20,365 nt of DNA from a virus. Made by a program: the position numbers and the translations under genes. The stretch covers positions 1 through 20,365 of IMG/VR virus record IMGVR_UViG_3300032238_000061; one strand, given 5' to 3'. The notes under the pieces are model-generated. The model was not told where the DNA came from. It did no database searches and was given only the letters and a program-made list of their open reading frames with translations. Below, one piece after another: positions 2,414-18,740 of the stretch; the stretch's first letter is position 1; each line of letters begins with the position of its first letter.

Positions 2414-3022
2414 TTAACTTTTAAATGGGATAAAATGATTTAATCTAAAATAATTCTTCTGAAGGATAGAATCAATTGGAACAATATCAAATGCTAGAGT
2501 GATTCTAGGGTGTGTAGGATCTGTCCAAACTGAACTCGAATGGCGATCATTATCGGATTTACCTACTACTAATAATCCGTTAACAGAAGGTACCTCAATG
2601 TCAGTATGTGAATTAGGTATTGAATATGTTGTCTTTGATTCGTTAACTCCTACATTGGCACAATAGAATCCATGCCAAACTTCATATTGGCTTTCCCAAT
2701 GACCGTGTGGCTTAACCCATTCTCCTTCTCTATATACATTCATCCAACTCTTTAACATATATCCTCTATCTGTATCAAGTAATGGGGATATATTTTCTAC
2801 CATAGATTTATATAAAATAATGAGTTCTCTACAGGGAAAGGAAAATAGATTATAATTTAAATTTAAAGCACTAGGTTTATTTCCATAAAATCCTAGTTCT
2901 ATATCTTTAGGAAATGCTCTGATCAGATAATCTTCAATCTGCAAACATTCATCAACTAGAGTTTCATTGTTGATTGTTGTTAAGTTAAACCCATAAAGAT
3001 AGTCTGTATAATATGTTTTCAT
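2414..3022 (-). CDS. 2-oxoglutarate/Fe(II)-dependent oxygenase-like protein
   Basis: A 202-residue protein resembling the putative 2OG-Fe(II) oxygenases common near fibre genes in marine T4-like phages. The C-terminal half carries the expected double-stranded beta-helix signature: SWMNVYREGEWVKPHGHWES at 92-111 with the HxH pair H106/H108, FYCANVG, VPSVNGLLVVG at 144-154, H161 as likely third iron ligand, and R173 in PRITLAFDI as likely 2-oxoglutarate-binding arginine. Residues 1-90 are less conserved-looking. AAAGG lies 7 bases before the ATG and a strong sigma70-like promoter lies further upstream. It is divergent from the Fe-S carrier gene at 3111. The substrate is unknown. Family members hydroxylate proteins, small molecules or nucleobases. 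The reaction class is supported by motif only. Confidence 0.7.
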   Translation of the reverse strand: MKTYYTDYLYGFNLTTINNETLVDECLQIEDYLIRAFPKDIELGFYGNKPSALNLNYNLFSFPCRELIILYKSMVENISPLLDTDRGYMLKSWMNVYREGEWVKPHGHWESQYEVWHGFYCANVGVNESKTTYSIPNSHTDIEVPSVNGLLVVGKSDNDRHSSSVWTDPTHPRITLAFDIVPIDSILQKNYFRLNHFIPFKS

Positions 3023-3467: not shown

Positions 3468-6400
3468 ATGGTTAAGAAAATAATTAATGTTGGTATCGAA
3501 GGAAATGACGCTACTGGTGACCCCATTAGAGAAGCATTTACTAAAACCAATTCAAACTTTACTGAGCTATATGCAGTATTTGGTAAGGGTGATGGATTTC
3601 CTTTTACCTCTTTATCAGATTATGATCCAACCCGAAACGGCGAATTAGTACCAAAGTCTATCTTTATTGTTAATGAAGCTGGAGATAAGATCCTAGCCAA
3701 AACAATCGAAGGTGAAGGAATTGAAGTAGATTATACTGATCCTAACGTTCTTAAATTAGTTAATAAAGGCGCTAAGATTGTCAATGATTCAAAGCCTACA
3801 TTAGGAGGAACTCTTAATGCTACGAATCATGCTCTTGGAAATATCAAGGATGCGACAAGTCTAGATGCTACTGAAATAAATGCTGATCTCAATTCATTTG
3901 CTGTTACTCGCGGATATGTTGGTTCAACTTTTGTTTATAAAGCTGGCGATACTATGACTGGTGCTTTAAATGTTCCGGCAGGTGCTACAGGAACTGCTGT
4001 TCCGAGACGACAAGAAGTTGTAGGTCGTGCTGGCGATACAATGTCAGGACCATTAATACTAAATGCAGATCCAGATGATTTAAGTAGTCCATTAACTGCT
4101 GCTACTAAAAATTATGTTGATACTACAGCATTTGCTAGCCAAGTTAATTTATATGTTAGTACCCAAGGTGACGATTTTAGATTCAACATACCAGATGAAA
4201 AAAGAGGTACATCACTTGCTTATTCTTTCAAGACGATTAATCAAGCTTGCTTTAAAGCAATAAAGATAATCGAATCAGCAAAGAATGAATTAGGGCCTTA
4301 TCAGAAGCCAATATTCTATGGCGGCAGTACAGGTCGTTCAACATTAGTCAGCCTAAACCCTATCCTTAATTATGTTTCTATGACTGGAGGATCTGGAAGT
4401 GGAACTACGATAACTGTCACAAGCACAGTAGGTCTAACACAAGGAATGCGTGTTATCGTTTCAGCTGGAACTGGAAGTTTTTATTCTACAAGATATGACT
4501 ACCAAGGTAATCTTGTTAGTTCAGATACTACTGTTAGTACAATTATTAACAATACATCATTTACTGTTTCACGAGCACCGAGGATCCCATTGTCTGGTGC
4601 TACTATACAGGCAATAACTCCTAATACATCTTGGACATTAACTATAACAAACGGTGGTAATCCATACGGTACTGATATGCGAGGAAATGGTAGTGTCGCT
4701 AGCCTTGATATCAGAGCAGGTCATCTAATAAGAGGTACTACAAGTGGTGCTACTGTAATAGTTGATTTGATTGGTAGCGTTAATGGATCAGTTGAAACAT
4801 ATACAGTACATTACGCACCTGAGTCACCGGTGTTTATCGCAGGTGAAGAATTAGAATATGGCGAAGCTGTAAAGTCTCCGAACATTACTATCTATGTCGA
4901 GAGTGGTGAATATTTTGAGAACCTTCCAATACGTGTACCTAACAATGTTTCACTAGTTGGTGATGATCTACGTCGTGTTATCGTCCGTCCAAGGATGGGT
5001 CCAAGCTGTAGCATATGGAGCGATACTTACTTTAGAAGAGATCCTAGAATTGACGGACTATGGGTAACACAAGAAGATCCTACAACTCATATACATCGTA
5101 CATTTGGTTGGCATTATCTATCAGATTCAAGCAAGAGTTTCTATACTAAGAGTTTTTATAAGCCAACTGATGTTTCCTATAATCATGGTACCTTTGTGAA
5201 TGCCCAAAAGATATTGCTTGCCAATAAAGCATTCTTACAGGATGAAATTATAGCATACATTAATCATCATATCGCTAACAATATATCTCCATATTCGTCA
5301 TCATTTGTTTATGATGAATATTTCTGTAGGAGAGATGTGGGACTAATAGTTGATGCTATATGTTTTGATATCTTTTACGGTGGATATACTAAGACATTAG
5401 AAGCTGCTATGTCCTATTATATGAATGCTAGTTCTAGAATAGTATTAACTAATCAGTTAGCACAACATTTAGATTCTATACATCATCTAATCTTCATAGC
5501 CAAGCGTGTTATCCAGGAAATAACGATCGATCCAAAATATTCCAATTCTACTCCGATTACTTTTCCTAATCTTACTGCTGAATCTGCTGTTTACGCAGTT
5601 ATTGATAATCTAGAAATATTCATGGACGATATATTGAATGGAGATACATCTATCAATATGCCACTAAACAATGATGAGATGGATATGTTCATGTTAAATG
5701 ATTCTAACAGAGTTAGAACATTAAGTGGACAGGGACATGGCGGATTTATGTGTGTACTTGATCCAGTTGGTCAGATCCTCACTAAGTCCCCCTACATACA
5801 ACAGTGTTCATCATTTGCTAAGAGTATTAACAAACATCATTTTGCTGGTGGTACTTTCGTTGATGCTTTCACAGGAAATCTACAGTGTAATATTACTGCT
5901 AGATCATATGATTCTGGAACAAAGCTAACGATACTAACAGTAACTGGGCTCACTTACAGAGTTCCACAGTTGCCAACATCATTCTTCTATCAGGGAGTTA
6001 GATTTGAAGTTGACTATATTGGACCTCCAGATACTCCATTGGCTGGATCATATAAATTGTATCTCAGCCAGAGCACGCCTGATGCCCAATCATATACTAG
6101 ATCAGCAACTGCCTTATTAACACCAGCTATTTCTCCAGCTGTTAAGACAATTGAGATACAGACAGCTGGTAATAGATCAATGTTAGCCAGTGACTTTACA
6201 CAGATTAACGATCTTGGATATGGTATATTTGTAACCAACAATGCGTTCTTTGAAGCAGTCAGTATATTCTGTTACTATAATTATAGAGCTTTCTATGCCC
6301 TAAATGGTGCGCAGATAAGGAGTCTGAACGGATCCTGCGGATATGGAGTTTATGCCCTAAGTTCAGAAGGATCGGATCCTACCGAAATCGCAACAACAGC

Positions 6401-9149
6401 TTCTTTAGCATATCCAATGGTTCAGATATTAAAGACCTATTCGATAGATACATTTTCAACTAAGAATAAGAAAGGTGATCTAGCTTTATATGTTACAGTA
6501 GATCCAGTATCAAACTATAAACCATTTAATGTAAGTGAACTAGAGATTGATAACGGTGATGGTACATTCAGTAGATATGAGATCAGTAGTGCTAGCACAA
6601 CTGGTGTAACAAACGTTTATCTCTTAAACATTAATACATCAGGAAACAACGATACAAGCAAGTTAGGACTAAATGATGACGTATCTCATGAAACAAATGT
6701 TATTCTGAGAAGTCTACAGAATTTTGAACTACTACATCTTGTAACTATACAGCCAACTCGCCCAAGCACAGCTTTACAGTTTGATAACGACGAAAATATA
6801 TATCATGTACTTTCTTATCAGTTAGCCGAAGCTCCGTATATACTCAGCGGAACTGGGCCTAATGATCTTGCTGCTACGTTAACTGTTAGCGAGTCTTATG
6901 CTTACATACAATTAATTCCAGATCTTACTGCTGGCATAGCATCTAATACTGGTCAAGTTGGTGCTACTAAGATAATCATGTCACCAGTATCAACAGCACA
7001 GGCTAGTAAAATAGTAGGCATGGTTTTTGGTTGGGGTGATACAGTACATACTATATCTGCATACGAGACTCCTACACAGACTGGACAAGCTTGGGCAAGG
7101 ATTACATTTAGTCCTTCTCTAACTAAGACTGTTGCTAAATCTGCTTACAACAATAATGTTCCTACACTAAAAGCTGGTCTTAACTCAGCAGCAGGAGCAG
7201 ACTTAACAGTACAGATATCTGTCGTAAGAGCAAACGGCCATGACTTAGTTGATATTGGAACTGGCAGTTTTGCTGATTCAAACATTCCAGCTAACATCTA
7301 TGGTGCTCCAGCAAACGCTAAGGATCAATCTAAAGAAGTACAAGAGATAGGTAAAGGTCGTGTGTTCTATGCTACAACTGACCAGGACGGTAATGTTAGA
7401 TTTGGTAAGTTCTTCCGAGTTGATCAAGGTACTGGTACTGTAACATTTGCTGCCAGCATAGCACTTTCTAATCTAAGTGGAATTGGATTTAAGAGAGGTG
7501 TAACTGTTAGTGAATTTAGCACTGACGATACAATGAGCAATAATGCTACTGATACAGTATCAACACAATCTGCTGTTGTAGGATATATCAATAAGAGACT
7601 AGGACTTACACCTACCGGAACAACTACCCTAAACAAAATAGGTCCAGGATATCTAGCATTAGATGGTACTACACCGTTCGGAACCGAAGCACAGAATGAT
7701 CCAAAGACCCAGACATTAAACATGTCATCGCACAAGATAGTGAATCTAGCTGGCCCAACTGAAGATAGTCATGCTGCTACTAAATTATACGTTGATAATG
7801 TGTTAATAAACTCAGATACAGTACGTACTGGTGTTCTAGGGTTTGCGATGGCCGACAGCATAGACGGTATCATTGATATGAACGATAACAAGATCATAAA
7901 TGTTACTACTCCGACTGCTACCGGAGATGCTGCTAACTATGATTATGTTAATACTAAAGCAAATATTAGCGCATTAAATGATATTACAATTTCAAGCATT
8001 GCTAATAACCAAATATTATATTATGATAATAGTTCAGTTGGATATACTGGATCAAACGCCAAATGGAGAAATAGTTTATTAAAGAATGCTAATGTAGCTA
8101 CAGACGCAGCCATAGCACAAAGTAAATTAGCACTAAGTGACGCTACTGCTGATGCTACTGCTGGTGCTGCTACAAAAGGTATATCAAGTTTTAACAGTGC
8201 TACTTTTGATGCGTCTAGTGGATATGTAAGTATTAAAGTTAACGGATTAACCTTAGATAGAATAACACAGATTGGCGCTGGATATGTTTTAGGAAATAAA
8301 CAAAATGTCACAGCAAACGTAGCAGGGATTACCTTTGCGGATGTTGTTAATTCAGCACTATCAGGAACTGACACTGGAATTTTAATAAGGACAGGTGCGT
8401 CACTATTTTCTACTGTTGGATACACGAGTGATAATACTGGTGGTACAGTAGTAAAACGTGATAACAGTGGCAATTTCAAAGCAGGTGACGTAACTATTAC
8501 TTCATTGACTGTAAATGGAGCGATACAAACAAATACTTTAAATGCTGATAGTAGTATTTCAGGATCTACATTAACTGCTACTAGCCAAATTTCAGCTGGT
8601 ACTGAAATACAAATTAATTCTAAAAAGATAATAGATTATAATGGAATTAATACCCGCATCTTTACTCAAGCTGGTGATGTGGCATTACAAGTAGGTGGAC
8701 CTGCTGGTTCTCCAACTGGTAAATTTTACGGAGCTTGGACATTAGAAACTGGAGCTACATTAAACGCAACTTATGCTGACTTGGCAGAATATTATGAGTC
8801 AGATAAAGATTATACTGTTGGATCTGTTATGATGATAGGTGGTGACAAGGAGATTACATTAGCTAAAGGACAAGGAACTACCGCAGTCGCAGGTGTAATA
8901 TCAACAAACCCGGCATTCATTATGAATGAAAAATGCACAGGTATCAAAATAGCAATAGCATTACAAGGTCGTGTTCCATGTAGAGTAGTTGGACAGATAC
9001 ATAAGGGAGATTTATTAGTAGTTAGCGCAGTGCCTGGTGTTGCTACATCAAGCACTGATCCAAAACCTGGTAGCATCATTGGAAAGGCTCTCAAGAATTA
9101 TAATTCAGATCGTGTTGGAACCATAGAAGTATTAGTAGGTAAACACTAA
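3468..9149 (+). CDS. Giant tail-fibre / adhesin-like virion protein
   Basis: This 1893-residue protein has a mosaic fibre architecture. Residues 1-40 carry a head shared with the next gene (INVG..GND..GDP.R.AF.K.N.NFTEL), probably for virion attachment. Two AGDTM(T/S)G fibre repeats lie at 159-165 and 188-194, each leading to an AATKNYVD-type turn. Residues about 470-515 (ITIYVESGEYFENLPIRVP) look like the start of a pectate-lyase-like beta-helix. A helical module with YDEYFCRRDVGLIVDAICFD, at about 620-640, is typical of marine myovirus fibres. More ALYVDN/YDYVNTK repeats occur at about 1430-1510. The last 124 residues (ADLAEYYES onward, with GRVPCRVVG and KGDLLVVS) resemble the C-terminal domain of phage fibres related to Peptidase_G2, but no autoproteolytic residue can be assigned. 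GGAG lies 5 bases before the ATG. It likely contacts the host surface. Confidence 0.85.
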   Translation: MVKKIINVGIEGNDATGDPIREAFTKTNSNFTELYAVFGKGDGFPFTSLSDYDPTRNGELVPKSIFIVNEAGDKILAKTIEGEGIEVDYTDPNVLKLVNKGAKIVNDSKPTLGGTLNATNHALGNIKDATSLDATEINADLNSFAVTRGYVGSTFVYKAGDTMTGALNVPAGATGTAVPRRQEVVGRAGDTMSGPLILNADPDDLSSPLTAATKNYVDTTAFASQVNLYVSTQGDDFRFNIPDEKRGTSLAYSFKTINQACFKAIKIIESAKNELGPYQKPIFYGGSTGRSTLVSLNPILNYVSMTGGSGSGTTITVTSTVGLTQGMRVIVSAGTGSFYSTRYDYQGNLVSSDTTVSTIINNTSFTVSRAPRIPLSGATIQAITPNTSWTLTITNGGNPYGTDMRGNGSVASLDIRAGHLIRGTTSGATVIVDLIGSVNGSVETYTVHYAPESPVFIAGEELEYGEAVKSPNITIYVESGEYFENLPIRVPNNVSLVGDDLRRVIVRPRMGPSCSIWSDTYFRRDPRIDGLWVTQEDPTTHIHRTFGWHYLSDSSKSFYTKSFYKPTDVSYNHGTFVNAQKILLANKAFLQDEIIAYINHHIANNISPYSSSFVYDEYFCRRDVGLIVDAICFDIFYGGYTKTLEAAMSYYMNASSRIVLTNQLAQHLDSIHHLIFIAKRVIQEITIDPKYSNSTPITFPNLTAESAVYAVIDNLEIFMDDILNGDTSINMPLNNDEMDMFMLNDSNRVRTLSGQGHGGFMCVLDPVGQILTKSPYIQQCSSFAKSINKHHFAGGTFVDAFTGNLQCNITARSYDSGTKLTILTVTGLTYRVPQLPTSFFYQGVRFEVDYIGPPDTPLAGSYKLYLSQSTPDAQSYTRSATALLTPAISPAVKTIEIQTAGNRSMLASDFTQINDLGYGIFVTNNAFFEAVSIFCYYNYRAFYALNGAQIRSLNGSCGYGVYALSSEGSDPTEIATTASLAYPMVQILKTYSIDTFSTKNKKGDLALYVTVDPVSNYKPFNVSELEIDNGDGTFSRYEISSASTTGVTNVYLLNINTSGNNDTSKLGLNDDVSHETNVILRSLQNFELLHLVTIQPTRPSTALQFDNDENIYHVLSYQLAEAPYILSGTGPNDLAATLTVSESYAYIQLIPDLTAGIASNTGQVGATKIIMSPVSTAQASKIVGMVFGWGDTVHTISAYETPTQTGQAWARITFSPSLTKTVAKSAYNNNVPTLKAGLNSAAGADLTVQISVVRANGHDLVDIGTGSFADSNIPANIYGAPANAKDQSKEVQEIGKGRVFYATTDQDGNVRFGKFFRVDQGTGTVTFAASIALSNLSGIGFKRGVTVSEFSTDDTMSNNATDTVSTQSAVVGYINKRLGLTPTGTTTLNKIGPGYLALDGTTPFGTEAQNDPKTQTLNMSSHKIVNLAGPTEDSHAATKLYVDNVLINSDTVRTGVLGFAMADSIDGIIDMNDNKIINVTTPTATGDAANYDYVNTKANISALNDITISSIANNQILYYDNSSVGYTGSNAKWRNSLLKNANVATDAAIAQSKLALSDATADATAGAATKGISSFNSATFDASSGYVSIKVNGLTLDRITQIGAGYVLGNKQNVTANVAGITFADVVNSALSGTDTGILIRTGASLFSTVGYTSDNTGGTVVKRDNSGNFKAGDVTITSLTVNGAIQTNTLNADSSISGSTLTATSQISAGTEIQINSKKIIDYNGINTRIFTQAGDVALQVGGPAGSPTGKFYGAWTLETGATLNATYADLAEYYESDKDYTVGSVMMIGGDKEITLAKGQGTTAVAGVISTNPAFIMNEKCTGIKIAIALQGRVPCRVVGQIHKGDLLVVSAVPGVATSSTDPKPGSIIGKALKNYNSDRVGTIEVLVGKH

Positions 9150-9170: not shown

Positions 9171-9740
9171 ATGGCTATAAAAACAATAAATGTAGGTAAT
9201 GTTGTTAATGATGGATCTGGCGATGATCTACGAACTGCCTTTGTTAAAGTTAATGATAACTTTACTGAATTAGTTAATATGCAGGGAGAAGATAATACTG
9301 CTTCCAACGTAGGAACTGGTGTTGGGCTATTTAAGGAAAAAGTAGGAAGTGATCTTAGATTTAAATCATTAGTATCTGGAACTGGAATTGGGTTGACATC
9401 AGATACTAATACAATTACAATTTCTAATGCTGATAATCAATTAGTTAACCAAATTAATAGCCTCCTTAATTCTTATGATTTTGGAGGAATCCAGAATAAA
9501 AGCAATAATGTTATAGAATTTATATTACAAGCAATGACTTTTGATTTTGGATCCATACTATCACCTGCTTCATTTAATCTAGATTGTGGTGTTACTGATA
9601 TCGTTATACTCTCAGAAGTACCAAATAATCTAACTGAATTTGATAGTGGCGGAGCAAGTGGAAATTATACATATCAAGCTGACAGCGGATCAGCTACAAC
9701 AACAAATTATACATCTGAATTCGATGGGGGATTAGCATAA
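9171..9740 (+). CDS. Small fibre-associated structural protein, paralogue of the giant fibre head
   Basis: A 189-residue protein whose first 40 residues (KTINVGNVVNDGSGDDLRTA, then FVKVNDNFTEL) closely match the head of the upstream 1893-residue fibre, so both probably dock on the same virion site. The middle (KVGSDLRFKSLVSGTGI...TNTITISN) resembles the beta-hairpin run of fibre shafts, and the Gly/Ser/Thr/Tyr-rich C-terminus (YTYQADSGSATTTNYTSEF) may be a short tip or assembly region. GGCAGGAA precedes the ATG. Its stop codon shares one base with the next ATG (TAATG), so translation is coupled to the collagen-like fibre. A role as adaptor or short fibre is inferred from position and head homology. 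Confidence 0.75.
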   Translation: MAIKTINVGNVVNDGSGDDLRTAFVKVNDNFTELVNMQGEDNTASNVGTGVGLFKEKVGSDLRFKSLVSGTGIGLTSDTNTITISNADNQLVNQINSLLNSYDFGGIQNKSNNVIEFILQAMTFDFGSILSPASFNLDCGVTDIVILSEVPNNLTEFDSGGASGNYTYQADSGSATTTNYTSEFDGGLA

Positions 9741-10558
9741 TGACTGTAAAGATTAAATTACGTAGAGATACATATACAAATTGGTATAATGCTAATCCCA
9801 TATTAGCACTCGGTGAACCATCATATGATACTACTAATAATAAAATTAAAGTCGGTGACGGATCAAACTCTTGGCGAAATTTAGAATACTTAACTGGGAG
9901 CTCGGGTGCTGGGGCTGGTTACACAGGTTCAGCTGGCACTAATGGTTACACCGGATCAGCTAGTACAGTAGCTGGACCAACTGGTTACACAGGTTCAGCT
10001 GGTACTAATGGTTACACCGGATCAGCTAGTACAGTAGCTGGACCAACTGGTTACACTGGATCAGCTACAAGAATCCCAACGGGCGGAACTACTGGACAAG
10101 TATTAACTAAAAATTCTGGAACTGATTATGATGCTGGCTGGGCAACACCCTCAGGTGGAGGCGGCTCTGGCCTCACAAGTAGAACAACAGCAAATGTTAC
10201 TACTAGTAGTTTAGCTAATGGCGCTAGTGGAAACGCTTCCATAACTGGATTCAAAGGTTACGGATTATATAAGATACAAACATCTGCCGCAGCGTGGGTT
10301 GTTATATATGATAGTGTAGCATCCAGAACAGCAGACATAAATGCTGCTCGTGATCAAAATACAGATCCATTACCAGGAAGTGGAGTTATAGCAGAGGCTA
10401 TAACAACAGGAGCACAGACTATTAAGTTAAGTCCGGGAACTATAGGATTTAGTGACGAAACTAGTCCAACTACTGCTATCCCAATAAAGGTGACAAATTT
10501 AAGTGGCAGTAGTACTACTATTACAGTTACATTAACTCTTCTATGCTTGGAGGTATAA
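9740..10558 (+). CDS. Collagen-like fibre with Mtd-type N-terminal domain
   Basis: A 272-residue fibre protein. Residues 1-52 (KIKLRRDTYTNWYNANPILA, then LGEPSYDTTNNKIKVGDGSN and WRNLEYL) match the N-terminal domain of the phage major tropism determinant and many tail fibres, which anchors the trimer. Residues about 57-110 are a Gly-rich collagen-like shaft of GYTGS units with AGPTGYTGSA, encoded by a 66-base tandem repeat (see 9917). A GQVLTK linker and GSGGGG hinge follow. The C-terminal 125 residues form a beta-rich tip (YGLYKIQTSAAAWVVIYDSV) like those of marine phage receptor-binding proteins. The ATG overlaps the preceding stop codon. It probably binds a surface receptor. The near-identical repeat copies allow easy length change. 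Confidence 0.85.
   Translation: MTVKIKLRRDTYTNWYNANPILALGEPSYDTTNNKIKVGDGSNSWRNLEYLTGSSGAGAGYTGSAGTNGYTGSASTVAGPTGYTGSAGTNGYTGSASTVAGPTGYTGSATRIPTGGTTGQVLTKNSGTDYDAGWATPSGGGGSGLTSRTTANVTTSSLANGASGNASITGFKGYGLYKIQTSAAAWVVIYDSVASRTADINAARDQNTDPLPGSGVIAEAITTGAQTIKLSPGTIGFSDETSPTTAIPIKVTNLSGSSTTITVTLTLLCLEV
9917..10066 (+). repeat. 66-base tandem repeat encoding the collagen-like shaft
   Basis: Unit one (9917-9982) and unit two (9983-10048) differ by a single base, and a third copy of the first 18 bases (10049-10066) follows with two changes. Each full unit codes for 22 residues (GYTGSAGTNGYTGSA then STVAGPT), itself holding two GYTGSA sub-repeats. The near-identity points to recent duplication or ongoing slippage. 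Confidence 0.9.
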
Positions 10559-10561
10559 TAA

Positions 10562-13279
10562 ATGATACCTATTATAGATATTGAACAGAAAGAATATATA
10601 ATAACTCTGAAAAATTTTGATGATTTAGAATCATTCTATAATGATATGGAATCAGAAGGATCTTCTGTCAGTTCAATACCTGTAAGAGAAATTGTATGTA
10701 CTGAACGTCGACCGATAAGTCGTAATACTCAGTATATGCTAACTAAAAAAGAATATTTAAAAATATCTAAAGATCCTAGAGTTGAGATAATAACTTTACA
10801 TCCTCGTTATCTAGGGGTAAAGGCTGATATATTTTTACCTCCTGAAGAAGAAGAGGAACAGGCGTTATCTTCTTCCACAAGAGAACAATCATCATCATAT
10901 TTTAATAAGTCAACATCTACGTCTAATAATATGAAAAACTGGGCGTTACTAAGATGCTATGAAGGAGTACCTAGAGCAAATTGGGGTTCAGATGGCACTA
11001 CTAATCAATCTGGAACTATTAAATTAGCACAAACTGGAAAGAATGTTGATATTATATTAATCGATGCAGGAAATCCTGATATCAATCATCCCGAATATGC
11101 TGTTAATGCCGACGGAACTGGCGGTAGTAGGATGATGCCATTTAATTGGTTTCAGTACGATCCAATAGTTAAAGGGTCAGCAACGAATACATATTCTGTT
11201 TCAAGTAATCCGCATTCAGTACACGTATCCGGAACTTCAGCTGGAAATACACAAGGCTGGGCTAGAGATGCTAATATCTACAATATGTATTATGCTGCTG
11301 GTGGAGACGCCGAGCCAACTATCGATGGTATGTTTTCTTATGTTATGGATTATGCAAGAGCGTTCCATAACAACAAAGCAATAAACAACAATACCGGACG
11401 AAAGAATCCAACGATTACTAGTAATAGCTGGGGATGGTCATTATTTCCAGGTGACTGGGCAATGACACTTATTACTGCTGTGACATATAGAGGTGTAAGA
11501 TATACACCGGCAGGTGGTAGTATAATTTATGATGGGGAATATGGTGTCTATAGTGCTGATACAAAACTTGCAGATCTTTTAGGAAAAGAAAATTTTGGAA
11601 ACAGAATTGTCACTACTGGAGACATTGTATCTGATTCTGGTACATTCGTTTCTTATCCTCAAGACTGGTCGTTAGAACCTCAACCGTCACCCCCATTTAA
11701 GAGTATGGTTTATATAATAGGATTTGGAGTTCCAGGAACCCAATACGTTGTAACTGTACAAGGACCAGCTACTATACAAGTAGACAGTCAGTTTGCAGCA
11801 TCAGTATCGACAGGTTCAGTAACAGTAACTGGCGAATACATAGTAACCGATGCTAGCAGCAACGTGATAGGTTCGTGGAGCGATACACAAACCGGAACAG
11901 ATGGCGCAAATGCTGAAGTAATACATCAAACAGATTTTGATATCCTTGATAATCAAATATATACTATAACCTTTAATCAATCAAAAAGTCAAACTCCAGG
12001 AAGCACTGGGTATATGGCTGCTTATGCTTATTCCGTAAAAAGTGTAGATAAATCTGTAATTGATGTAACAGTCACTGAAATAACAAATACATTATTAGGA
12101 GCAGCTTCACTTACAGGATCAACTACTCCAACTTCGGGCAACAACGATGATGGATATTGGACTCTGTCTTTGCCCTTTACTGTAAGATACTTGGGCGTAG
12201 ATTATACTTCTGTTTATGCCGGAACTAATAATTACTTAACATTCGGTGTTGGATCAGCACATTACCAGGGGCTTGGACCAACCGATCCTTATGCTCCAAA
12301 AATAATGATGGCTGCAGGTGATACTAGCATACAACGATTATATTACGGAACAGAAGGTACTTCACCAAATAGAAAATATAGAATAAGAACTGAGGGGTCA
12401 GCAAGCACTGGTGGAACTCTAGGTAGTCCAACAATAGTATATGAATATACATTTTATGAAAATACAAATAATCAAATAGATTTACAAATAGGTGTAAACG
12501 GTAATAAACATTCAAATTCATCATTTACTACACAACAATTAAATGACTGGGGGATTATTGCTGGTCAAAGAATACCGCAACGATTACCGTCTCTTGATGC
12601 TGATATAATAGATGCAATGAATGACGGTGTTATATTTGTTGGGGCAGCTGGAAATGGAAAATGGTATCATGATGTACCAGGCGGTCTCGATTGGGACAAT
12701 ACATTTGAAATGGCTACACAGTATCCTGATAGTGTAGCACACCCATTCTATCTCTGCAGAGGAACTAGCCCAACTGCTAATGATGTTAATATGCCTAACA
12801 TATGTGTTGGAGCTATTGATGTAACAGTTGAAGAAAGAAAAGTATATTTTAGTGACTGTGGACCTGGTGTAGATATATGGGCTCCTGGTCATCATATAAT
12901 AAGTGCGTTAACTAACGGATTTGGTGTTGTATTAGTGCAGGACGAAAGAAATACTAGCCATACATTAGGAAAAATTTCTGGGACTAGCATGGCTTGTCCG
13001 CAAGTTGCTGGTGTATTAGCATGTGCTTTAGAAGTATATCCTGATATGAATCAATCAGAAGCTAAAGAATATATTACTAACATAGCTAAAGAAGGACAAT
13101 TAAAAGCAACCGGAACAGGATACGCAGATCCAAATGATATAAACGGATCTCCAAATCTTTATCTTTATTACAAAAGAGAAAGAGAATTAAATGGCAATTC
13201 ATTTCCAAAGGTAAACTTTAGACTACGTCCTACAAGTGGATCAGTTTACCCACGTAATAGAATCAAACGCAGGAAATAA
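10562..13279 (+). CDS. Subtilisin-family (S8) serine protease with large internal insertion
   Basis: A 905-residue protein with an intact S8 catalytic set: D168 (IILIDAGNPDINHP), H218 (NPHSVHVSG), oxyanion N698 (VGAAGNGK) and S809 (ISGTSMACPQVAGV). Residues 1-90 (YIITLKNFDDLESFYNDM ... LTKKEYLKISKDPRVEIITL) resemble an I9-type propeptide that folds and inhibits the enzyme, followed by an acidic/Ser-rich linker at 92-122 that could be cleaved. Between the His and Asn motifs lie about 480 residues, against about 90 in subtilisin. Roughly 310-660 of this is beta-rich, with two probable sandwich domains. The C-terminal tail is strongly basic. No signal peptide is visible. GGAGG lies 8 bases before the ATG. 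It sits inside the fibre block, so it is probably a virion enzyme that processes fibres or digests host surface proteins. The target is unknown. Confidence 0.9.
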   Translation: MIPIIDIEQKEYIITLKNFDDLESFYNDMESEGSSVSSIPVREIVCTERRPISRNTQYMLTKKEYLKISKDPRVEIITLHPRYLGVKADIFLPPEEEEEQALSSSTREQSSSYFNKSTSTSNNMKNWALLRCYEGVPRANWGSDGTTNQSGTIKLAQTGKNVDIILIDAGNPDINHPEYAVNADGTGGSRMMPFNWFQYDPIVKGSATNTYSVSSNPHSVHVSGTSAGNTQGWARDANIYNMYYAAGGDAEPTIDGMFSYVMDYARAFHNNKAINNNTGRKNPTITSNSWGWSLFPGDWAMTLITAVTYRGVRYTPAGGSIIYDGEYGVYSADTKLADLLGKENFGNRIVTTGDIVSDSGTFVSYPQDWSLEPQPSPPFKSMVYIIGFGVPGTQYVVTVQGPATIQVDSQFAASVSTGSVTVTGEYIVTDASSNVIGSWSDTQTGTDGANAEVIHQTDFDILDNQIYTITFNQSKSQTPGSTGYMAAYAYSVKSVDKSVIDVTVTEITNTLLGAASLTGSTTPTSGNNDDGYWTLSLPFTVRYLGVDYTSVYAGTNNYLTFGVGSAHYQGLGPTDPYAPKIMMAAGDTSIQRLYYGTEGTSPNRKYRIRTEGSASTGGTLGSPTIVYEYTFYENTNNQIDLQIGVNGNKHSNSSFTTQQLNDWGIIAGQRIPQRLPSLDADIIDAMNDGVIFVGAAGNGKWYHDVPGGLDWDNTFEMATQYPDSVAHPFYLCRGTSPTANDVNMPNICVGAIDVTVEERKVYFSDCGPGVDIWAPGHHIISALTNGFGVVLVQDERNTSHTLGKISGTSMACPQVAGVLACALEVYPDMNQSEAKEYITNIAKEGQLKATGTGYADPNDINGSPNLYLYYKRERELNGNSFPKVNFRLRPTSGSVYPRNRIKRRK

Positions 13280-13324: not shown

Positions 13325-15718
13325 ATGTCAAAACCTGTTTGGTCTACAACGCAACCTTCAAATGTCAGTTTAGGAACTTTTATTGAGAGAAAAACTCTCG
13401 GTGTAGGTGGAGTTCCTGTTATCCATCTGTTAGTAACAGGTAACAATGTGTCAGTATCAGTTATATCAGGAAAACTACCCGGTGGACTTCGAATTGACGG
13501 ATTAACTATCGTTGGAACACCATATGCTGTAATTGGTTCTGTTACTTCAAGATTCGTTCTACGTGCTAAAAATCAAGATGGGATCAGTGATCGTACTTTT
13601 ACAATTAAAATCGGAGGAGAAGGAGATTCTCTTGCCTGGACAACACTTCCAGGTTCACTACCTGTTGGAGCCAATAATCATTTTTATGTGTTAGATAATT
13701 CATGGGTTGAATTCCAATTTGATGCGATTGATATGGATGTTCCGAGTGGAAAGTACCTTAACTATCATGTTCCACCTAATGGAGGAGAATTACCTAAAGG
13801 TCTTAGTTTATCAACTACAGGACTTCTGTCAGGATTTACAGCACCAATACTTGCTGTAGATACCGGTGGGAATTTAGGAAAATATGACACTACCTTATAC
13901 GATAAGTTTGGATACGATTATGGGGTAAGACCTATGAACGGTTATGATAGTTTTTACTTTGATAATCAGACTTATGATTTCTTTAATCCCAACAGAGCAC
14001 CTAAAAAACTAAATCGTTATTATCAATTCGTAGTAAGAGCTAGCGATGGAATACGTTATATCGATAGACAATTTAAAATATATGTAGTTGGTGACGATTA
14101 TATGCGAGCAGATAACGATATCTTACGAGTAGGTACTAATACATTCTCAGCAGATAATACATATATGAGAAAAACTATTTGGATAACTCCAAAATATATC
14201 GGAAGATTAAGAGCCAACAATTATATAACTATCATATTAGATGTCTTTGATCCTGTTACATTAGAAGGAACGATTGGATATATTTTAAATCCAACAAATG
14301 ATGATGGGTCTCCAAGCGTGTTACCTCCTGGAATGGTGCTAGATCAATTAAGCGGTGAAGTATATGGGTCAGTACCTTATCAACCTGCTATTACTAAAAC
14401 TTATAAATTTACAGTTAATGCGTTAAGATATAGCGTAGATCCTAATGTTCCAAATGTGCCAAGCCTACGAACATTTACTGTTGATATTATAGGCGATATC
14501 GATAGTGTGATACGTTTTACTACAAACGGAGATCTAGGAACTATTAATGCTAATTTTATTAGCAATTTAAGTGTAAGTGCTGTTACTACTGTACCACAAG
14601 CTGTTTTAATTTATAATATCACTAGTGGAAGGTTACCTCCTGGATTAAAATTAATCAATGACGGGACAATACAAGGAAAAGTTAATCAGTTCTCTTCTGA
14701 AGAGAATCTAGGACTAATAACTTTTGATAATAATACAACAGTATTTGATGGTCATACGACACCGATTGATAGAAGCTATACATTTACTGTAGAAGCTAGA
14801 GACCAATTTAATCAATCAGCTACTACAAAAACATTTAAATTATCAATCGATACTCCAAATGATAAACTCTATAGCAATATATATGTTAAGCCATTTTTAA
14901 AAGCATCTGTAAGGGCAGCACTAATTGGATTTTTTAATAACTCTAATGTATTTGAACCCAAATCAATATACAGACTAAGCGATCCAGAGTTTGGTATACA
15001 GAACGAACTTAAGATGTTACTTTATCCAGGGATAGAGAGCAAAGAAATATCAGCCTACGTTTCTACTTTTGGAAGATCATATAGAAAGAGATATATAACA
15101 GGAAATATAAAGAAAGCTATAGCTAAGACTCCTGGAACTAATACTGTAGTATATGAATTAATATATCTAGAAATTGTTGATAAATTTGAAAACGATCGAG
15201 GTTCAGTAGCTGAGTATATAAGCACAAACTCATTACATCATCCAATAAGTGTAAATCAAAGTAGAAGAGACATTATTGATAGTGATCCATACGATGATAA
15301 TATCGCAGCGATGACGATAGATCGATTATCAAGTATATTAATACAAGATAAAGTTATGACAGCCGATTTTGGTGGACAATTAATTAGTGATAGCAATCGT
15401 TCAAATGTATTTGGAAATAGCACTACTAATATAAGAAAGAAAATCGAAGCGATCGGTGATACTGAAAGGAACTATCTACCATTATGGATGAGAACTCCGC
15501 AATCATTTAGTGGTGTAGAACAGGGATTTACAAAAGCAGTTCCAATTTGCTATTGTGTTCCAGGCGCTGCTGATAATATAATGTTAAACATAAAGAATAG
15601 TGGATTTGATTTTAAGATAATCGATTACACAGTAGATCGTGCCATAATTGATAGTGTAGTAGGCGAAGCTGGCGATAAATACATCGCATTCGCAGCAAGA
15701 GAGGTTATAAATGGCTAG
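13325..15718 (+). CDS. Ig-like repeat virion structural protein
   Basis: A 797-residue structural protein with four putative Ig-like (He_PIG/cadherin-like) repeats, each with a GxLPxGLxL...GxxxGxP signature and a closing YxFxVxAxD...FxI strand pair: about 30-97 (SGKLPGGLRIDG), 110-250 (GELPKGLSLSTTG), 300-390 (LPPGMVLDQLSGEVYG) and 425-515 (SGRLPPGLKLINDGTIQG). The C-terminal 280 residues form a separate domain with YLPLWMRTP near 717 and AVPICYCVPGAADNIML near 738, which I recognise as a pattern of marine T4-like virion proteins. The start follows the hairpin and late box at 13282. Its stop overlaps the next gene by 8 bases. Such proteins often decorate tail, baseplate or fibres and bind carbohydrates, but the exact position in the virion cannot be read from the sequence. 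Confidence 0.8.
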   Translation: MSKPVWSTTQPSNVSLGTFIERKTLGVGGVPVIHLLVTGNNVSVSVISGKLPGGLRIDGLTIVGTPYAVIGSVTSRFVLRAKNQDGISDRTFTIKIGGEGDSLAWTTLPGSLPVGANNHFYVLDNSWVEFQFDAIDMDVPSGKYLNYHVPPNGGELPKGLSLSTTGLLSGFTAPILAVDTGGNLGKYDTTLYDKFGYDYGVRPMNGYDSFYFDNQTYDFFNPNRAPKKLNRYYQFVVRASDGIRYIDRQFKIYVVGDDYMRADNDILRVGTNTFSADNTYMRKTIWITPKYIGRLRANNYITIILDVFDPVTLEGTIGYILNPTNDDGSPSVLPPGMVLDQLSGEVYGSVPYQPAITKTYKFTVNALRYSVDPNVPNVPSLRTFTVDIIGDIDSVIRFTTNGDLGTINANFISNLSVSAVTTVPQAVLIYNITSGRLPPGLKLINDGTIQGKVNQFSSEENLGLITFDNNTTVFDGHTTPIDRSYTFTVEARDQFNQSATTKTFKLSIDTPNDKLYSNIYVKPFLKASVRAALIGFFNNSNVFEPKSIYRLSDPEFGIQNELKMLLYPGIESKEISAYVSTFGRSYRKRYITGNIKKAIAKTPGTNTVVYELIYLEIVDKFENDRGSVAEYISTNSLHHPISVNQSRRDIIDSDPYDDNIAAMTIDRLSSILIQDKVMTADFGGQLISDSNRSNVFGNSTTNIRKKIEAIGDTERNYLPLWMRTPQSFSGVEQGFTKAVPICYCVPGAADNIMLNIKNSGFDFKIIDYTVDRAIIDSVVGEAGDKYIAFAAREVING

Positions 15719-16501: not shown

Positions 16502-17147
16502 AAACCTTCCCCATACATGGGCAACTGAAGTAAGCAGCATGGTGTTTGTTGATAACATCATGCTAACTAATCGATATAAATTTGAAATTGGATTCTTTAG
16601 TATTAATCCAAATCCTGTGCTAAATGATATCGGACTCGATCAGCTTGATATGTTCTTTAGCATGTTAATGTCAAACGCAGTTATCGTCGATAGAGCAGAC
16701 TATACTGAATCACTGATCCTAAATGATCTAAAGAATAACAAGATCATGGTTCCAGGTAAGGGGAACGATCAGGTAGTTGGAAGTTTAGTATTCCTAAAAC
16801 TATTGAATATAGTTGGCGAAAATCTAGAAATGGATTATGTTAAGATCACTAGTGAACTAGGAAAAGACATATGCTATACTATCACTGCTGACTCTCTAGA
16901 GATTGAAGCACTAGTTCCAAAGAAAGCAGATTGGTGGGGAGACGATAAAGTTAAGCATCAACCATGGTGGAATAGACCAGATGCTGCTACATATGATCTA
17001 CTGACAGATGGTAAGCTTTATACAGGTGACTTTGATTGGAAAGAGATCTTTAAGGATGAGTATGAAGAAGCTGAGGAATATAATAAGCCAGCCCTTTCTA
17101 AAGGTAAGGTGTTTAAGCTGATTCCTGGCGGGAAAGATGTACACTGA
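16479..17147 (+). CDS. Conserved-looking protein of unknown function
   Basis: A 222-residue acidic protein I cannot assign. It lacks membrane segments and known catalytic motifs. Residues 20-130 alternate strands and helices (FKFEIGFFSINPNPVLNDIG region), and residues 145-175 hold an unusual aromatic cluster (KKADWWGDDKVKHQPWWNRP). The C-terminal third is Asp/Glu/Lys-rich. GGAG is 12 bases before the ATG, a long spacing. An internal ATG at 16540 is a less likely start because it would remove only 20 residues and has no better ribosome site. It overlaps the genes on both sides (23 and 11 bases), so it is co-translated with the polymerase III alpha-like fragment. A shared role with that protein is a guess. 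Confidence 0.75.
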   Translation: MTSSKSTRNLPHTWATEVSSMVFVDNIMLTNRYKFEIGFFSINPNPVLNDIGLDQLDMFFSMLMSNAVIVDRADYTESLILNDLKNNKIMVPGKGNDQVVGSLVFLKLLNIVGENLEMDYVKITSELGKDICYTITADSLEIEALVPKKADWWGDDKVKHQPWWNRPDAATYDLLTDGKLYTGDFDWKEIFKDEYEEAEEYNKPALSKGKVFKLIPGGKDVH

Positions 17148-17661
17148 TCAACTAGGTCGTATCTCGTTTACGAGCAAAGACATCATAGAAGAGATTTATC
17201 GGGGAAATCTCGGTAAGATCGATCTAGCTAAAGTTAGGATTGATGAGGAATATCTACAGTATGTAGAATTCGTCCGAGAGAATGCTTTAGACGATTGGCC
17301 TATTCCTCTGCCCGAGGATACAGATGAAATAGATATTGAGAAGTTTGATTGTCTGAACCAACATAGTTGGCTAATGCCCTTTGAATATAAAAAGATTTCA
17401 GCTGGGCCGTACCTATTAAATCTCTGTTCGACGGCAGAGGAAGAAGCTAGAGTTCATATGGAACTAGAATTGTTTGAAAAACACAACATGATGGATCTAT
17501 TGCGCTTCCTGATCTTTTTAGTTGACACGCTTAGGGCAAATAATATACTATGGGGTGTAGGTAGAGGTTCTAGTGTCGCTAGTTATTGCCTGTATCTTTT
17601 AGGCGTACACAAGATCGATTCACTTAAATATCAATTAGATATAAATGAATTTTTAAGATAG
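17137..17661 (+). CDS. Short DNA polymerase III alpha (C-family) like protein
   Basis: A 174-residue protein whose C-terminal 60 residues match the palm segment of bacterial replicative polymerase DnaE: helix LLRFLIFLVDTLRANN, then WGVGRGSSVASYCLYLLGVH (139-158), then KIDSLKYQLDINEFLR. In DnaE the GRGS motif is followed by the catalytic aspartates (PDID). Here the chain ends right after FLR, before those residues, so it cannot be a complete polymerase. The N-terminal 110 residues are acidic and do not look like the PHP domain. The stop codon is followed by GGAG and the next gene, with no sign of a frameshift continuing the reading frame. It may bind DNA or nucleotides, or interfere with the host polymerase. 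The resemblance is clear, the role is not. Confidence 0.75.
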   Translation: MYTDQLGRISFTSKDIIEEIYRGNLGKIDLAKVRIDEEYLQYVEFVRENALDDWPIPLPEDTDEIDIEKFDCLNQHSWLMPFEYKKISAGPYLLNLCSTAEEEARVHMELELFEKHNMMDLLRFLIFLVDTLRANNILWGVGRGSSVASYCLYLLGVHKIDSLKYQLDINEFLR

Positions 17662-18010: not shown

Positions 18011-18349
18011 ATGATTACCAAGGGTAAGTTGATACCGATCCGTGATCACGTGATCGTAGAAGAGATGGAATTTGGCGAACAGATCAGCAAGGGCGGAATC
18101 ATCATCCAGAGTGATGATGGTAAGACTATGGGCGTTAAGCCACGCTGGGGCAAGGTATATGCTGTTGGCGAAAAGAACAAAGATGTAAAGGTCGGCGATT
18201 GGGTCCTAATCGAACATGGTCGATGGACTCGTGGCATGAACGTAGAAGACGAAGATGGAAATATGAGAGTCTTGCGTAGAGTCGATAAAGATGCTATCAT
18301 GATTACTAGTCATAAGAAGCCAGGAGATGTGTATGTCACAGCAGATTGA
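18011..18349 (+). CDS. GroES-like co-chaperonin (gp31-type)
   Basis: A 112-residue GroES-fold protein that caps host GroEL so that the capsid protein can fold, as T4 gp31 does. The sequence shows the co-chaperonin pattern: LIPIRDHVIVEEME (7-20), a mobile-loop region with KGGIIIQSDD (27-36) where III stands for the IVL triplet that touches GroEL, RWGKVYAVG (45-53), VKVGDWVLIEHG (59-70), and a closing strand with VDKDAIM. GGAG is 6 bases before the ATG. It overlaps the MazG-like gene by 17 bases at its 3' end. Length is between bacterial GroES (about 97) and T4 gp31 (111), and it has an extra C-terminal tail. The roof-loop region (RWTRGMNVEDEDGN) is long, which might enlarge the folding cage. 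Confidence 0.87.
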   Translation: MITKGKLIPIRDHVIVEEMEFGEQISKGGIIIQSDDGKTMGVKPRWGKVYAVGEKNKDVKVGDWVLIEHGRWTRGMNVEDEDGNMRVLRRVDKDAIMITSHKKPGDVYVTAD

Positions 18350-18740
18350 TCTTAATCGTTATACAGAATTTGTTAGCGTAGTCACAAGTGCTGAATCAAA
18401 TGATACAGAAGCACTAATACATCGTATGCGTGAACTAGATAAGGATACTAATATAGCATTACTAACAACTGCTGCTATTGGACTTGCTAGTGAAGGTGGT
18501 GAGTTTAATGAAATCGTTAAGAAGATGTTGTTCCAGGGCAAGCCTTTTAACCAAGACAATCGTTTCCATCTAATGCGCGAACTTGGAGATATTATCTGGT
18601 ATTGGACTAATGCTTGTCGTGCGCTCGGATATGATCCTAATGAAGTCGTTGCTGAGAATGTTCGTAAACTAGAGGCACGTTATCCCGGCGGTACATTTAA
18701 CGCTTGGTATAGTGAGAATCGTATGGATGGTGACATATGA
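18333..18740 (+). CDS. mazG: MazG-like nucleotide pyrophosphohydrolase
   Basis: A 135-residue all-helical MazG/NTP-PPase family protein, which hydrolyses nucleoside triphosphates to monophosphates with Mg2+. Signature residues are EGGEFNE (54-60, E54 and E57) and RELGDIIWYW (82-91, E83 and D86), giving the ExxE...ExxD metal-binding set. Related phage proteins are thought to tune the dNTP pool or the alarmone response. I choose ATG at 18333, not 18327, because AGGAG at 18322-18326 is 6 bases from it and directly abuts the other. It overlaps the co-chaperonin gene by 17 bases and the next small gene by 4 (ATGA). The true substrate cannot be read from the sequence. Confidence 0.85.
   Translation: MSQQIDLNRYTEFVSVVTSAESNDTEALIHRMRELDKDTNIALLTTAAIGLASEGGEFNEIVKKMLFQGKPFNQDNRFHLMRELGDIIWYWTNACRALGYDPNEVVAENVRKLEARYPGGTFNAWYSENRMDGDI

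Follow-up and report, generated by a model that had tools for sequence, protein, structure and literature searches.

A phage subtilase with a beta-rich insertion in a fibre locus and its candidate role as an exchangeable enzymatic fibre tip

The window analyzed here, i.e. the complete stretch of 20,365 nucleotides given by IMG/VR virus record IMGVR_UViG_3300032238_000061, contains a complete open reading frame (10562-13279, plus strand, ATG to stop) for a subtilase of 905 amino acids. As originally predicted, the gene lies within a tail-fibre/baseplate block, and its relatives, too, are found among fibre, tail-pin and structural genes. The block comprises genes for a 1893-aa tail fibre (3468-9149, +; PHROG match), a short protein resembling the N-terminal part of T4 gp9/gp10 (9171-9740, +; a weak match just below the Pfam cut-off), a short fibre protein of 272 aa (9740-10558, +; Pfam) that combines Mtd_N with collagen-like GYTGSAG repeats and a conserved C-terminal domain, termed CTD in the following, and, downstream of the subtilase, a 797-aa He_PIG (Ig-like) structural protein (13325-15718, +; Pfam). 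Genes for a QueD-like PTPS protein and, next to it, a UvdE UV-endonuclease (403-2004, +) place modified-base or repair functions adjacent to the fibre block, and a weak 2OG-Fe(II) oxygenase-like ORF is found on the minus strand (2414-3022) within the plus-strand block. Further genes encode a 174-aa protein with a match to a PHROG 'DNA polymerase' family (phrog_11127; 17137-17661, +) and a gp31/GroES-like co-chaperone with, after it, a MazG-like pyrophosphatase (18011-18740, +). A short protein like the phrog_11127 match occurs at the same place in many relatives and is possibly a split or truncated part of a polymerase. An assignment of the window to the cyanophages is not supported: its clamp loader is nearest to those of T4-like jumbo phages of the PA5oct, Phosso and Atu_ph07 type and not to those of marine cyanophages, and none of 14 related contigs carries a psbA-family gene. 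Four large related contigs contain gp23.

The subtilase matches Pfam Peptidase_S8 with 66.5 bits (cut-off 21.8), and PHROG family 9158, which carries the label 'unknown function', at 9e-92. The original prediction placed Asp168, His218, Asn698 and Ser809 in proper S8 motifs, and the homologue alignment bears this out: the four codons reside in the motifs ILIDAGN (Asp168, 11063-11065, +), PHSVHVSG (His218, 11213-11215, +), GAAGNG (Asn698, 12653-12655, +) and GTSMA (Ser809, 12986-12988, +), and the full set is retained in 128 of 130 non-redundant homologues, the exceptions being one Asp-to-Glu exchange and one gap in the Ser column. With its triad and oxyanion Asn in S8 motifs and a predicted subtilisin fold, the window protein is a member of peptidase family S8. 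At least 80 close relatives are present in IMG/VR, and the majority of 47 matching phage records have versions devoid of the insertion described below. The subtilase itself thus joins a family already known and annotated in cyanophages as a new member, albeit one with an unusual insertion. Inspection by eye of the N-terminus, MIPIIDIEQKEYIITLKNF, revealed no signal peptide, in agreement with the earlier reading.

AlphaFold2, run on a 49-sequence alignment consisting exclusively of the window protein and IMG/VR proteins, yielded a model with a mean pLDDT of 81.8 and a pTM of 0.61. Foldseek matched it, over some 200 columns, to structures of the subtilisin/proteinase K type with E-values down to 4e-10. 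Whether the four catalytic residues come together in a predicted structure had been posed as a test, and their canonical fold positions are consistent with it, with Asp ending beta1, His and Ser each starting a helix and Asn following a strand in the model. The catalytic core is split into a first half with D168 and H218 (residues 108-317; 10883-11512, +) and a second half with N698 and S809 (residues 673-858; 12578-13135, +), both delimited by AlphaFold2 and the alignment. It is preceded by a predicted N-terminal prodomain of I9-like fold (residues 8-85; 10583-10816, +), in which residues 10-79 follow the order beta-alpha-beta-beta-alpha-beta. The label 'I9-like' was part of the original prediction and rests on this predicted secondary structure, since Pfam I9 (PF05922) matched just one of the 49 alignment members and did so below threshold (E 0.078). 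Between prodomain and core, a variable, mostly low-confidence linker (residues 86-107; 10817-10882, +), with pLDDT values below 50 at residues 89-105 and a mean identity of homologues to the window of 20%, is the putative region of self-cleavage. Triad and predicted prodomain together fit self-activation of the subtilase. That the protein is a catalytically idle relic serving as an adhesin is hardly credible: a large beta insertion and a Glu aligned with the catalytic Asp in a relative from S-CAM1 would suit such a role, but the near-complete retention of the four catalytic residues and the preserved prodomain speak against it.

The insertion (residues 318-672; 11513-12577, +; delimited by alignment and AlphaFold2) extends from the SNSWG segment, which we take from established subtilisin knowledge and an alignment to Mirolase to be S1-wall segment 125-127 of subtilisin, to the helix before Asn698. 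The original prediction of some 350 inserted, mostly beta-structured residues and a His-to-Asn distance of about 480 holds: the distance is 480 residues, as opposed to 148-157 in S-CREM1, S-H38, Sf-FR1 and S-WAM2, and the segment comprises 355 residues, about 330 of them extra. Most relatives with a full insertion have about 345-360 residues here (two are near 450) and some paralogues 217-258; homologues without insertion mostly have 24-36. Whether the insertion forms separate beta domains on the S8 core had been proposed as a check, and the model has two all-beta domains directly after the S1-pocket segment; modelled alone, the insertion reaches a pLDDT of 88.1. Domain A (residues 346-505; 11597-12076, +) is the fastest-evolving folded part, with a mean identity of homologues to the window of 27%; domain B (residues 506-660; 12077-12541, +) is at 60%, about the level of the core. 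Relatives of domain B occur in Xanthomonas and Stenotrophomonas phages, within proteins annotated as fibre or FnIII, and in S-SRM01 as a separate protein of 286 aa. The insertion has no match in Pfam, its profile picked up SusE alone among solved structures (E 0.0095), and Foldseek returned the phage T1 tail tip, the Fbs1 sugar-binding domain, CBMs and TNF-like lectins, all weakly and with TM-scores of at most 0.45. We therefore rejected its assignment to a known domain; the model weakly resembles jelly-roll, lectin or CBM-like folds. In the tree, proteins with full insertion form a single clade of 41 (support 0.998), while mid-size forms branch at two other places outside of it, and a single origin of all insertions is consequently rejected. 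Some loci (L010-L015, L018, L025, L026, L029 and L032) contain tandem subtilase genes, with a mid-insertion copy directly before the full-insertion copy. The insertion of the former has about 226 residues and lacks domain A; both copies end with the tail described below, and one CTD gene lies ahead of the pair. Overall, the insertion is less informative than the CTD encoded upstream and the tail at the C-terminus of the protease.

Two phages provide indirect mass-spectrometric support for a virion location of the protease, albeit not for that of the window phage itself. The S-SCSM1 record notes the subtilase homologue gp144 as '(virion protein)', a label present on 47 genes. The S-SCSM1 paper gives 45 proteins as detected in mass spectrometry, and three non-structural virion proteins that it names appear to bear the same label (PMC9602691). 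The S8 protease gp329 of Atu_ph07 has a C-terminal part akin to the He_PIG protein downstream of the window subtilase (E 2e-16), and the gene that follows resembles, by eye, the next gene of the window at its N-terminus. According to the corresponding paper, gp329 is the last gene of a virion cluster (CDS 284-329) defined by mass spectrometry (PMC6102473). Against this evidence stands that both proteases are devoid of the CTD partner and the tail described below. The gp144 label, the Atu_ph07 cluster, the setting among fibre and structural genes and triad plus prodomain lend indirect support to the original idea of a virion-borne, self-activated protease. As virion proteins can enter the cell, the enzyme could also act after entry or at release, on intracellular host proteins or debris instead of at adsorption; we regard this as very unlikely, since both the location in fibre/tail-pin operons and the Ig-like He_PIG repeats fused to the Atu_ph07 protease suggest an external location.

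The main clue of the locus lies outside the subtilase gene, in the CTD, a C-terminal domain of about 110 aa (about residues 162-272 of the short fibre protein; 10223-10555, +; HMM 2.4e-52) that may serve as a socket. A CTD gene is located directly upstream of the subtilase gene in 77 of 77 informative IMG/VR loci, all of which were found by way of the protease and not the CTD and include the upstream gene; three contigs beginning at or near the protease were left out. The upstream proteins vary in content and in length, up to 1031 aa, and have their last ~110 residues in common. A search of marine phage genomes for the same gene order had been suggested, and the order of CTD and subtilase genes is present in S-CREM1, S-H38, Sf-FR1, S-WAM2 and S-RSM4, but there is no CTD upstream of the proteases of P-SSM2 or S-SCSM1 (gp144). 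The CTD profile found no match among solved structures, and comparison with PHROG and Pfam returned no match of gp38 or gp37-tip type.

Which genes follow the CTD was assessed in a census starting from CTD searches, deduplicated to 170 distinct CTD genes, in all of which the domain sits at the extreme C-terminus. Among the matches listed, the next gene encodes an S8 protease in 129 cases, an S53-like protein in eight and another protein in 26, with a contig end in six cases and no gene in one, fractions that are biased to near relatives of the queries because the best 80 matches were taken per IMG/VR scan. The S53-type proteins are true relatives of kumamolisin, with pro-kumamolisin and S53 catalytic domains: the one from locus L104 aligns with pro-kumamolisin (1t1e) over almost its full length, prodomain and enzyme included (E 2.5e-63), and the catalytic domain of that from L182 matches mature kumamolisin (8.8e-31). 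Twenty of the 26 other proteins make up one family without protease match, represented by S-SCSM1 gp140 and the S-BM3 and Sf-CH1b types. A family of proteins of about 600-900 aa behind the CTD, without protease match and ending with '..ARTT', is encoded at L311:5347-8064, L154:4317-6614, L155:4317-6143 and L151:4337-6307, usually with a gene for a small tail-bearing protein after it. For siphovirus CTDs (S-CBS2, S-CRES1, PSS2), the next gene is not a protease gene either, and we rejected the notion that the CTD is exclusive to subtilase genes, given that S53 proteases and non-proteases are found behind it as well. Two further arrangements are worth recording. One subtilase following a CTD (L178:5340-8645) is 1101 aa long and includes an extra region at its C-terminus that matches AGS_C (3.4e-12) and, weakly, cupredoxin models. 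S-BM3 contains a 7.9-kb gene annotated 'peptidase S8' (SBM3_00202; L155:1-1355) three genes before the CTD fibre. At the level of sequence, then, S8 proteases (insertion-bearing or not), tandem pairs of them and S53/kumamolisin types swap behind the same CTD, which is suggestive of interchangeable protein-cutting fibre tips.

These arrangements bear on the question of what the protease cuts, for which the original prediction had offered fibre processing or cleavage of host surface proteins. The subtilase could be a maturation protease that trims the adjoining fibre during assembly, for instance a chaperone-like CTD, with phage proteins as its sole targets. Its gene adjoins fibre genes, the CTD is strictly C-terminal as in cleaved intramolecular chaperones, and S8 enzymes are expected to self-process. 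However, in 26 of the 163 cases with a next gene the CTD is followed by a non-protease, mostly together with a small tail-bearing protein, so that the CTD fibre has no need of a protease, and processing becomes less likely as the main role. The alternation of S8 and S53 families behind similar CTDs also argues against it, and a role confined to such substrates would leave the tail common to both families unexplained. We therefore deem a maturation protease unlikely and favor cleavage of a host-surface protein as the probable role.

The tail in question forms the C-terminus of the window subtilase (residues 859-905, ...SFPKVNFRLRPTSGSVYPRNRIKRRK; 13136-13276, +; tail HMM 1.4e-23) and is shared with S53 proteases of other phages. 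S8 proteins behind a CTD end with ...FPKxNYxxRPxxGxVYPRxRIRR, and the motif RPxxGxxYPR is common to these and to most of the S53 proteins, where the tail follows their own catalytic domain (L182, ...RPVTGNVSPTHAFDRRPATGMVWPRTKTL; L104, ...YPKVNYGFRSANKQRYPRYTTG...). A YPR-type motif is present within the last 40 aa in 92 of 109 S8 and seven of eight S53 proteins but in none of 23 others; among the 17 S8 proteins and the one S53 protein without a terminal tail, some carry additional C-terminal domains. With S8 tails alone as its training set, an HMM finds three S53 tails (3e-10, 9e-10 and 1e-9) and, in L111, a tail located ahead of an added glycine-rich domain (7e-6). The score of the tail of the kumamolisin-type L104 protein was reached by none of 1000 shuffles; the tail of L102 is weak, with two of 1000 shuffles reaching the real score. 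Where the CTD is followed by another protein, the tail resides in most loci on a small protein encoded after it, e.g. S-SCSM1 gp139 (...RPATGQMYPRFNK). The proposal that every CTD has the tail as its only plug is thus weakened, as these other proteins are themselves tailless, even if most of their loci have the small tail-bearing protein.

The co-occurrence of CTD, tail and protease may alternatively stem from mosaic exchange of fibre loci. All three would then merely travel together in a recombination-prone region without physical coupling, and fibre loci are indeed mosaic, domain B of the insertion being found as well in phage fibre proteins that are otherwise unrelated. Nevertheless, we judge mosaicism as the whole explanation to be quite unlikely. 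Two nearly whole genomes were scanned: a 199-kb relative of the window contains one CTD, one protease and one tail, all adjacent, and in S-SCSM1 (1189 ORFs, six frames) both of the tails present lie within four genes of the single CTD. The tail moves among S8, S53 and small proteins yet stays beside the CTD, and it is missing from the proteases of P-SSM2, S-SCSM1 (gp144) and Atu_ph07, all of which lack an upstream CTD.

On balance, we consider it probable, by a modest degree, that the virion-borne subtilase is an enzymatic tip that docks via its tail on the fibre CTD and cuts a host-surface protein at adsorption. A short fibre or a tail pin would bear it at its end. Judging from family and fold, it would be made as a zymogen whose prodomain folds the catalytic domain and is then cut off in the linker around residues 86-107. 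Genomic co-occurrence suggests that the basic RPxxGxxYPR tail would then plug into, or assemble with, the ~110-aa CTD of the upstream protein. The beta insertion may act as an exosite or adhesin that steers the protease to its target, with domain A varying and domain B constant, and the tip may finally cut pili, an S-layer or an outer-membrane receptor. A more general scheme is conceivable and is put forward tentatively: in T4-like phages, the CTD may accept any protein with an RPxxGxxYPR tail, so that S8, S53 or adaptor-borne non-protease tips are exchanged in a plug-and-socket manner, while inserts near the S1 pocket tune specificity. If true, this would suggest that infection includes the cutting of surface proteins of picocyanobacteria and other aquatic bacteria; CTD and tail would provide a rule by which fibre tips could be recognized in phage genomes that lack annotation, as well as a naturally occurring plug and socket with which enzymes could be mounted on fibres. 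PHROG 9158, a family of 'unknown function' that recurs across cyanophages, would gain a candidate role.

The closest known counterparts are proteins of cyanomyoviruses annotated as 'subtilisin-like serine protease' and belonging to PHROG 9158 (S-CREM1 SCREM1_165, S-H38 QPB07966.1, S-RSM4 SRSM4_039 and those of Sf-FR1 and S-WAM2). They share S8 core, prodomain, upstream CTD gene and, in most cases, the C-terminal tail with the window protein but lack the insertion and stem from phages of picocyanobacterial hosts. Beyond their annotation, no discussion of their role was found in the literature searched; nor was a description of any fibre-borne subtilase found in the open-access literature searched, where, to our knowledge, exchangeable proteases in a plug-and-socket arrangement are likewise undescribed. 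P-SSM2 PSSM2_297 and S-SCSM1 gp144 are also S8 proteases encoded in a fibre/baseplate block, in contrast to the window protein without upstream CTD, terminal tail and insertion, and gp144 is extended by a long region at its C-terminus. Atu_ph07 gp329 (PHROG 3677) is an S8 protease of a T4-like jumbo phage and includes a relative of the He_PIG protein but is a single fused protein of 1251 aa, again without CTD, tail and insertion. Kumamolisin (S53; 1t1e) is a self-activating protease of the subtilisin clan whose phage homologues occupy the position behind the CTD, yet it belongs to a Ser-Glu-Asp family and has a different activation domain. With regard to architecture, gp38 of T-even phages offers a parallel: this separate adhesin at the tip of the long tail fibre is encoded just downstream of gp37 and docked on the C-terminal domain of the latter. 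In the window, too, the gene for a candidate tip comes right after a fibre gene whose product ends in a conserved domain, on which the tip would dock. The likeness drawn here is one of arrangement, and gp38 serves for binding and has no enzymatic activity. Sugar-breaking phage tail enzymes, finally, are well known. Virion-associated tailspike depolymerases resemble the proposed tip as tail-borne enzymes that modify the host surface (PMC5380687), but their targets are polysaccharides and they typically belong to the spike itself, whereas the window subtilase would be a separate, exchangeable part that cuts proteins.
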